Positions 46,347 to 48,751 of a stretch of DNA of 64,000 nucleotides are shown piece by piece. The position numbers and the translations under genes are program-made. A model generated the notes under the pieces. That model was not told where the DNA came from. It worked only from the letters and a program-made list of their open reading frames with translations, and ran no database searches. The stretch is taken from NCBI GenBank assembly GCA_902582755.1, contig CACHSZ010000004.1, forward strand, positions 56,709 to 120,708, read 5' to 3'. Each line of letters opens with the position of its first letter. Position 1 is the stretch's first letter. This stretch comes from an uncultured Alphaproteobacteria bacterium (GTDB taxonomy: Bacteria > Pseudomonadota > Alphaproteobacteria > HIMB59 > GCA-002718135).

Positions 46347-46398
46347 ATTTAAATTTAATAGTTATAATTTTTATTTAAATTTAATAGTTATAATTTTT
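46347..46398. repeat. Perfect 26-bp tandem direct repeat (atttaaatttaatagttataattttt x2)
   Basis: Copy 1 46347-46372 and copy 2 46373-46398 identical; copy 2 contains the recombinase stop codon. Confidence 0.9.
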
Positions 46399-47446
46399 TT
46401 GCTGCACTTGTCTCTTTAATATTTGTTAGCTTTGTATATCTATCTATCATTTGTGTTGTTTTATGACCACTTTGAGCCATAATTTCATGAGTGGGTACTC
46501 CATTCATTCTAGCCTGAGTAATTGAACCTATTCTTAGACTATGACCAGAAATTTTATCACAATTTTCTATGCCTGCGTCTTCGGCTCTTTTCTTTAAAAT
46601 TAAAACAAAACTTGTGTCAGTCAAACTTATTTTTTGATTTTTATTATTAAGAATATATTTTTCTATATTGTTAGCTTTGTTAATTTTATAAAAGAGAGGA
46701 CCTGAGTCAATTAATGCAACGTCTAACCAATTCTTTAACGCAGATACAGGACAATAAGGTGAGTTATTTTTAGGTAAATAGATCATTCTCCCTTCACCTT
46801 TTTGATCAGTTTTAGAAAAAGGAATTAAAACCTGAACACCATCATCTTCAAAATTTAAATGCTCATATTTCATTCCTAACAATTCTGATCTTCTGCAAAA
46901 ACTATAAAATCCAATTAATATTAGAGCTTTATCTCTTATGTTTCTAAAATCATCATTATCCTCTGGAATTTTATTAATTATTTTCTCAATATCTGCTTTC
47001 AAAAGCTCCTTTGCTTGACCAGATTTATTATTTCTTTCATCTCTTACAATTGCACTTATCGTTTCTGATATGTTGGGATTTTTTCTATCAAACTGAAAAC
47101 CATTAATTCTATATTTATAAGTTATAGAGGCTAAAATTCTTTGTATAGTTGACGCTTTATAGGCTGATGAAGAGTAGGGGTTATTATTTAACTTTTCTCT
47201 TCCTGGAATATTACTTGTTCCTTTCAATATTTTTGCTTCTGGATCTTCATGAAGCCAATCCATATAATTAGCAGTTAAAGCATATGCACTTTCTAAATCA
47301 TCAACATCTAATGGACTGCAATTGTATTTATTTTTGCAATAGTCGATAAATTTAAGCCAATCTCCGTTGTATTTGTCCTGAGTATTCTTTGCCTTAGATT
47401 TTTCCTTTAATTTATTTACATTATCATTTAGTGATATTTTAACCAT
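46388..47446 (-). CDS. Tyrosine recombinase / site-specific integrase
   Basis: Complete catalytic set: FCRRSELLG (R), FSKTDQKGEGR (K), HSLR (HxxR), GHKTTQMIDRYTK (H, Y). Confidence 0.92.
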   Translation of the reverse strand: MVKISLNDNVNKLKEKSKAKNTQDKYNGDWLKFIDYCKNKYNCSPLDVDDLESAYALTANYMDWLHEDPEAKILKGTSNIPGREKLNNNPYSSSAYKASTIQRILASITYKYRINGFQFDRKNPNISETISAIVRDERNNKSGQAKELLKADIEKIINKIPEDNDDFRNIRDKALILIGFYSFCRRSELLGMKYEHLNFEDDGVQVLIPFSKTDQKGEGRMIYLPKNNSPYCPVSALKNWLDVALIDSGPLFYKINKANNIEKYILNNKNQKISLTDTSFVLILKKRAEDAGIENCDKISGHSLRIGSITQARMNGVPTHEIMAQSGHKTTQMIDRYTKLTNIKETSAAKKL

Positions 47447-47452
47447 ATTATA

Positions 47453-47480
47453 TATTACGATAATTACAGTTATCGTAAAT
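47453..47480. promoter_or_regulatory. Dyad resembling a Xer/dif core site or autoregulatory operator: TATTACGATAA-TTACAG-TTATCGTAAAT
   Basis: 9-bp perfect inverted arms ttacgataa/ttatcgtaa (47455-47463, 47470-47478) around a 6-bp spacer, just upstream of the recombinase start. Confidence 0.5.
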
Positions 47481-47598
47481 AATAGTCAAGTAATAATTAT
47501 TAATACAATAAATCAATAAGTTATATATATTATCTAAATCTATTTATAATATTACAAACTAGATATAGATTTTCACGTGTAATAAAATACTGTATATA

Positions 47599-48333
47599 GT
47601 GTATCAAATGGAACAATTACCGCAGATTTCAGCTGATTCCCAGATCTTTGTATTAACGGGTGCTGGTATAAGTAAAGAGTCTGGGATTGAAACTTTTAGA
47701 GACTCTGATGGACTTTGGAATAACCATAGGATTGAGGATGTTGCCAGTCCCGAAGGTTTCTATAGAAACCCTACTCTTGTCTATGATTTTTATAATAAAC
47801 GTCGAAATGAACTAAATTCAGGAATTGAGCCAAATAGGGCCCATATTCTTCTTCATGAATTAGAAAAAACATATAAAATTCATATAGTTACACAAAATAT
47901 CGATAATTTGCATGAGATTGGAGGATCATCATCAATTATTCACATGCACGGTGAGCTAAATAAGGCAAGATGTATAATGAATAATAATCATGTGTTTGAG
48001 TGGACAGAGGACCTAAATGAGACCCATAAATGCTCTAAATGTGGCTCTCAAATGAGACCTCACATTGTATGGTTTGGTGAAATGCCAATGCAAATGGATG
48101 AAATTCATGATTTAGCTGAACAATCTAGTCTGTTTGTTTCTATAGGCACTTCAGGACAAGTCTACCCTGCTGCCGGTTTCGTTTCAATGTTTAAAGATAT
48201 GGGCAAACCAACAGTTGAATTAAATCTAGAGCCATCAAGTAATCAAAATCAATTTGATTTTGCTATTCATAAACCTGCAACAGTTGCCGTTGAAGAATTT
48301 AAAAACTTACTTTTAAGTAATAATAATAACTAA
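47599..48333 (+). CDS. cobB: Sir2-family NAD-dependent deacylase, CobB-type (GTG at 47599; ATG at 47608 also possible)
   Basis: LTGAGISKESGIETFRD, TQNIDNLHEIGGS, MHGEL, RPHIVWFGEMP, GTSGQVYPAAGFV. Confidence 0.94.
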   Translation: MYQMEQLPQISADSQIFVLTGAGISKESGIETFRDSDGLWNNHRIEDVASPEGFYRNPTLVYDFYNKRRNELNSGIEPNRAHILLHELEKTYKIHIVTQNIDNLHEIGGSSSIIHMHGELNKARCIMNNNHVFEWTEDLNETHKCSKCGSQMRPHIVWFGEMPMQMDEIHDLAEQSSLFVSIGTSGQVYPAAGFVSMFKDMGKPTVELNLEPSSNQNQFDFAIHKPATVAVEEFKNLLLSNNNN

Positions 48334-48427
48334 TTTATTCACGTCATTAATTTATTTAAATTTAATCTAGTTTTTTCATTTAAAATTATTAATTTATTTT
48401 AAAAAAATTATTACTTTTGGAGGATAA

Positions 48428-48751
48428 ATGAAAAAAGGATACTGGGTAGGACAAGTAAAAGAAATTAAAAATGAAGAAAAATGGGGACAATATTTAGAGA
48501 AATTTATGAATATTGTTGCAGAAGAAGCAGAAAAGAAATCAGGAAATTTTGTATTTACTGCTGGTAGTGAACCAAAGCACTATGTTCAAAAGAATTTTGA
48601 TTTATTATTTTCTGCAGTTGTTGAATTTAATAGCGTGCAGGACGCAATAGATGGTTACAATGATCCTCGATACCAAGAAGCTTTAGCACTTTTAGGTGAA
48701 AATAAAGAGGATGTTGTTGTAAGAAATTTAGTAATTATAGAAGCACCTTAA
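48428..48751 (+). CDS. DUF1330-like dimeric alpha/beta-barrel protein
   Basis: KGYWVGQVKEIKNEEKWGQYLEKF; SVQDAIDGYNDPRYQEAL; SD ggagg. Confidence 0.75.
   Translation: MKKGYWVGQVKEIKNEEKWGQYLEKFMNIVAEEAEKKSGNFVFTAGSEPKHYVQKNFDLLFSAVVEFNSVQDAIDGYNDPRYQEALALLGENKEDVVVRNLVIIEAP

Follow-up and report, generated by a model that had tools for sequence, protein, structure and literature searches.

The dyad at 47453-47480 of the window (the whole stretch of 64,000 nucleotides analysed here) is very probably the dif site of its chromosome, and the gene next to it very probably encodes a single recombinase that acts on it. What we observe is a conserved site present once per genome, linked to the recombinase gene and located at the replication terminus, in a group in which XerC and XerD are absent. 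The best reading is a one-enzyme dif system in which the recombinase promoter and the site overlap, recombination being something that we infer from sequence. The window belongs to a group of very small marine bacteria, which appears to have lost the two-enzyme XerC/D machinery that parts duplicated chromosomes ahead of cell division, and to use one Cre-like enzyme with a site beside its own gene. We also think it likely, with rather less confidence, that two streamlined lineages of marine Alphaproteobacteria, SAR11 being one of them, resolve chromosome dimers by a Cre-like single recombinase with an adjacent dif, and that XerC/D was replaced in them from the plasmid/phage integrase pool.

The site and its conservation

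The site reads TATTACGATAA-TTACAG-TTATCGTAAAT, and the inner 9 bp of its arms are perfectly complementary across a 6-bp gap, so that the dyad given in the preliminary description is real and correctly placed. It lies in a 152-bp gap between the recombinase gene and a divergent SIR2 gene. It had been put 7 nucleotides upstream of the recombinase ATG; the adjacency holds, but there are six bases between the site and the first base of the ATG (47446, minus strand). The window has a GC content of 27% and comes from an assembly of 1.43 Mb that is 85% complete and in 35 contigs. The features are:

46388-47446, minus strand: Cre-like tyrosine recombinase of 352 aa, the only PF00589 protein in the genome assembly
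47453-47480, minus strand: dif-like site, 11-6-11, from the sequence; its 22-bp core (47456-47477) is invariant within the genus
47453-47463, no strand: predicted recombinase-binding arm, the half-site nearer the recombinase gene, TATTACGATAA on the plus strand (from sequence and conservation)
47460-47466, minus strand: weak -10-like stretch inside the site, TAATTAT in gene orientation, a poor match to consensus (2-4 of 6)
47464-47469, minus strand: asymmetric 6-bp centre, the predicted strand-exchange region, TTACAG on the plus strand and CTGTAA in gene orientation
47470-47480, no strand: half-site nearer SIR2, TTATCGTAAAT on the plus strand, 9/11 like the E. coli XerD half-site (from alignment and conservation)
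47484-47489, minus strand: TTGACT, -35-like box of the recombinase promoter; TTGAC is invariant in the genus
47599-48333, plus strand: SIR2-family gene, the divergent neighbour across the site in most genera, with no known part in the system

With regard to chance, the bare dyad is not significant, because the window has four perfect 9-6-9 dyads where a first-order Markov model predicts 1.7, and we reject its rarity by itself as evidence. Likeness to E. coli dif is also rejected. The 15/28 identities previously counted by hand were reproduced, as were the 9/11 in the XerD half, but the whole-site figure carries no weight as unrelated places in the window reach 19/28. It is in conservation that the site exceeds chance, with an invariant 22-bp core and one pair of arms per genome in 76 genomes.

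In gene orientation the core is TACGATAA-CTGTAA-TTATCGTA, and among relatives it does not vary in any of 72 distinct upstream regions, in which the flanking intergenic columns are mostly variable. The other invariant block in these regions is the TTGAC box, 8-12 bp before the core. The arms are present in 76 of the 162 genomes of the order, with exactly one copy in each, and a control pattern had no match across the same 162. The positive genomes comprise 71 of the 102 in the window's genus and 5 of 8 from other genera of the family (four other genera); the arms were found in none of the 52 sister-family genomes. The dyad is conserved upstream of orthologs, and the preliminary description had made this a condition for keeping the idea. 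In the window's own genome a search for further copies gave only 3-mismatch matches, at control level.

About a quarter of the genus genomes are without the locus in their assembly, including G054 and G055, both 90% complete. Overall, gene or site is found in 75 of the 102, and 75.6 would be expected from completeness if the locus were universal. Presence tracks assembly completeness, as for a universal gene.

The 6-bp centre is invariant in the f1 genera and inverted in genus g3, where the recombinase has 66% identity and the core is the same, the centre being intact though turned round relative to the gene. In G035 the recombinase is 41-46% identical and the site is GTATGATAA-GTGTAA-TTATCATAC, with changes in both arms that preserve the dyad. 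In genus g5 a well-conserved SIR2 gene (78%) is next to another recombinase (36%), and the position of the site is taken by another dyad, whose 16-bp arms (one mismatch) flank a centre of 7 bp. From these sequence variants it appears that enzyme and site change together. In one single-cell genome (L043, G046:C20:17119-18175) the recombinase reading frame is broken by stops, and is either a pseudogene or an assembly error.

A class-wide search found recombinase homologs in a second family, f99, with genomes of about 1.2 Mb and 26-29% GC. A tyrosine recombinase is present in 52 of 60 f99 genomes, mostly exactly one, of about 309-327 aa, and an inner YGATAA-N7-TTATCR dyad stands just before the start codon in all nine loci for which the upstream region was read. 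In G366, the one f99 genome read for skew, the cumulative skew maximum of the 400 kb read is 570 bp from the site. From their translations the neighbouring genes resemble those of a free-living metabolism, and for this reason f99 is probably SAR11. In a tree the f99 and f1 enzymes fall in one wider group apart from XerC/D, but with moderate support and long branches, so that it fits one origin or two.

The recombinase and the absence of XerC and XerD

The preliminary description had called the recombinase an orphan, and it is indeed the only tyrosine recombinase in its own genome assembly; it is also the one tyrosine recombinase common to the family. R185, K212, H302, R305, H328 and Y337, which we take from knowledge of the recombinase family to be the catalytic residues, are invariant in 13 homologs. 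In the structure model (pLDDT 82) the nearest fold is that of Cre, followed by XerA and XerH, and identity in the structure alignment with Cre is only about 16%. The enzyme thus has a Cre-like fold with the full catalytic set, and is of the plasmid/phage integrase type. Against the XerC and XerD models it is below the cut-offs by about 300 bits, and it scores 21.5 bits against the XerS model NF003462, for which the cut-off is 267. No XerH chain was among the PDB sequence hits at E<=0.001.

A search for separate xerC and xerD genes had been proposed as a check, and neither was found in the window's own genome or in the 68 family genomes sampled. The sister family has two such genes, with XerC/D-type genes in 49 of 52 genomes at similar completeness, and the best XerD-model scores there are 1e-65 as against about 1e-14 or weaker in the window's family. 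The genome also encodes an FtsK that has the gamma domain. In the family a canonical dif pattern gave only 2-3-mismatch matches near control level, a pattern that also picked out no dif in the XerC/D-bearing sister genomes.

In other Alphaproteobacteria (L279, L281 and L282) there is, upstream of a related recombinase, a conserved gene (about 370-390 aa) that, judged by eye, looks like a RarA/MgsA C-terminal region standing alone.

Terminus, promoter and alternative explanations

GC skew is positive to the left and negative to the right of the site in all seven contigs that extend on both sides (G133, G009, G000, G020, G021, G024 and G106). Tested against shuffled blocks, the change reaches significance in G133 (8.5 kb from the site) and G009 (7.8 kb), and the skew maximum of G035 is 1 kb from the site. 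The contig of the window has only 16 kb on one side, and its change point is not significant alone. The skew check suggested at the outset is thus positive in relatives with longer contigs, and the site, being where the skew switches sign, marks the replication terminus. Gene and site are co-inherited, so within the family the terminus position is not independent for each genome. Genomes differ in how the site is oriented with respect to the replichores: the block that includes it is inverted between G000:C4 (98.6-120 kb) and G133:C1 (131-163 kb), so that orientation differs between species. There are also KOPS-like motifs, G-rich words such as AGTAGGG with a strand bias towards the site of 71 to 11, but this is only a lead as the genomes share ancestry.

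Of the roles first put forward for the dyad, that of a chromosomal dif with one-enzyme resolution is the best fit to the skew at the terminus, the conservation and the absence of XerC and XerD. From these we infer binding, cleavage, dimer resolution, control by FtsK and autoregulation, which might proceed as follows. One site, with its two near-identical arms of the YGATAA type, would be occupied by two protomers, and two sites on a dimeric chromosome would be brought together to give a tetramer. Strand exchange across the 6-bp centre would then split the dimer into monomers, and FtsK may set the time and place of the reaction. Binding by the recombinase probably also represses its own gene where the site overlaps the promoter, as it does in most genera.

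It is unlikely that the dyad is an operator only, at which the recombinase or another dimeric repressor regulates the recombinase gene without recombination. An operator role had been one of the original options and is probably partly true, because in most genera there is overlap of the site with the TTGAC -35 box and the weak -10-like stretch. The invariant box is directly beside the core, the -10-like stretch is inside the site in the f1 genera, the start codon is six bases away, and the box of g3 has moved by 6 bp along with the inverted centre. A TTGACA/T box is upstream of the site in every lineage, but its distance from the arm ranges from 13 to 33 bp with the site intact: 14 bp in most f1 genera, 20 in g3, 13 in G035 and 32-33 in f99 and g5. 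As the site moves relative to the promoter and yet stays intact, it more probably has a role of its own, and autoregulation would be a by-product. An operator alone would also have an asymmetric centre that is invariant, and intact when inverted, would be at the replication terminus in two families, and would leave these genomes without either dif or XerC/D.

We give still less probability to a mobile element that has become resident in the family, with the dyad as its attachment site and the recombinase as its integrase, the two serving integration and excision and not chromosome maintenance. The enzyme is of a type that would suit this, and G113 has, directly next to the site, an island with a related recombinase. 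However, there is neither a flanking element nor a further copy of the site, the locus is single copy and present as a universal locus would be, the site has its place in the GC skew, and no relatives were found in IMG/VR viral contigs. In G113 homology to the other genomes ends at the left edge of the site, where the left arm is altered to TTACGTTAA, and about 25 kb of other DNA follows. This island has genes that from their translations are cytosine methyltransferase-like and Vsr-like, a second SIR2 gene (50%) and a second related recombinase (41%); a partner site or left attachment copy was looked for and not found. This suggests, by analogy with LME-1, which uses the dif site in Legionella (PMC9765430), that an element may have used the site in G113. 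Attachment, which had also been an original option, may thus be at most a secondary use, seen in this one relative.

The island also carries restriction-modification-like genes, and its SIR2-recombinase pair is divergent in the same order as the host pair (L160:7834-15984; G113:C2, about 47.8-56.0 kb). The interval between SIR2 and DUF1330 (48333-48428 in the window) is an insertion hot spot (L205, L145, L159-L160); its length is 94 bp in the window and about 5, 7 and 25 kb in G110, G133 and G113 respectively.

Finally, the own genome is only 85% complete in 35 contigs, but that a canonical XerC/XerD and dif were missed for this reason, with the dyad incidental, is extremely improbable given absence from 68/68 family genomes and presence in 49/52 of the sister family at similar completeness.

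Comparison with known systems

Carnoy and Roten reported Pelagibacter ubique to be without dif/Xer, which they read as loss by genome streamlining (PMC2731167). For one abundant, streamlined lineage of the ocean our analysis offers a specific site and a specific enzyme that can be tested, and the same holds for SAR11 if f99 is SAR11. If the reading is right, the few single-recombinase dif systems gain a Cre-like member, and the mobile-element pool can supply a replacement for XerCD. In fragmentary single-cell genomes of the window's group the 22-bp core is, in addition, a marker of the replication terminus.

Like XerCD/dif, the site is 11-6-11, low in G+C, intergenic and terminal, and its right half resembles the E. 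coli XerD half while identity over the whole site is no better than at random places in the window. It differs from that system in having one enzyme and symmetric arms, with neither XerC nor XerD, so that a pair of recombinases is lacking.

Cre/lox of phage P1 has the nearest solved fold and sequence, and there too a single enzyme acts on a palindrome. Dimers of the P1 plasmid are resolved by Cre, and lox is 13-8-13. The window's site differs in being chromosomal and terminal, and its conserved core fits 11-6-11 and not the lox layout.

In the case of XerH/difH (Campylobacter and Helicobacter) and XerS/difSL (streptococci and lactococci) there is one recombinase, of 354-362 aa, with the site beside its gene and near the terminus (PMC5357621, PMC2731167). 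The window has the same arrangement of one tyrosine recombinase with gene and site side by side near the terminus. However, its enzyme is far below the cut-off for XerS, and XerH structures are more distant from it than Cre. Neither difH nor difSL has perfect arms, and the centre of difSL is 11 bp long (PMC5357621), whereas the arms in the window are perfect over 9 bp.

XerL/dif of the Legionellales is a single divergent recombinase in bacteria formerly thought to be without dif/Xer, with near-perfect arms of 10 and 12 bp in a site that is near the GC-skew maximum and is used by a mobile element (PMC9765430). The window is like it in the single enzyme, the near-perfect arms and the location near the skew maximum, a likeness in described features. 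In L. pneumophila the XerL gene and site are >400 kb apart (PMC9765430); in the window they are adjacent.

By the features compared, the window falls with the single-recombinase dif systems: it has one conserved chromosomal tyrosine recombinase without the XerC and XerD pair, and a single intergenic palindromic site near the GC-skew maximum, at which that one enzyme is predicted to recombine.
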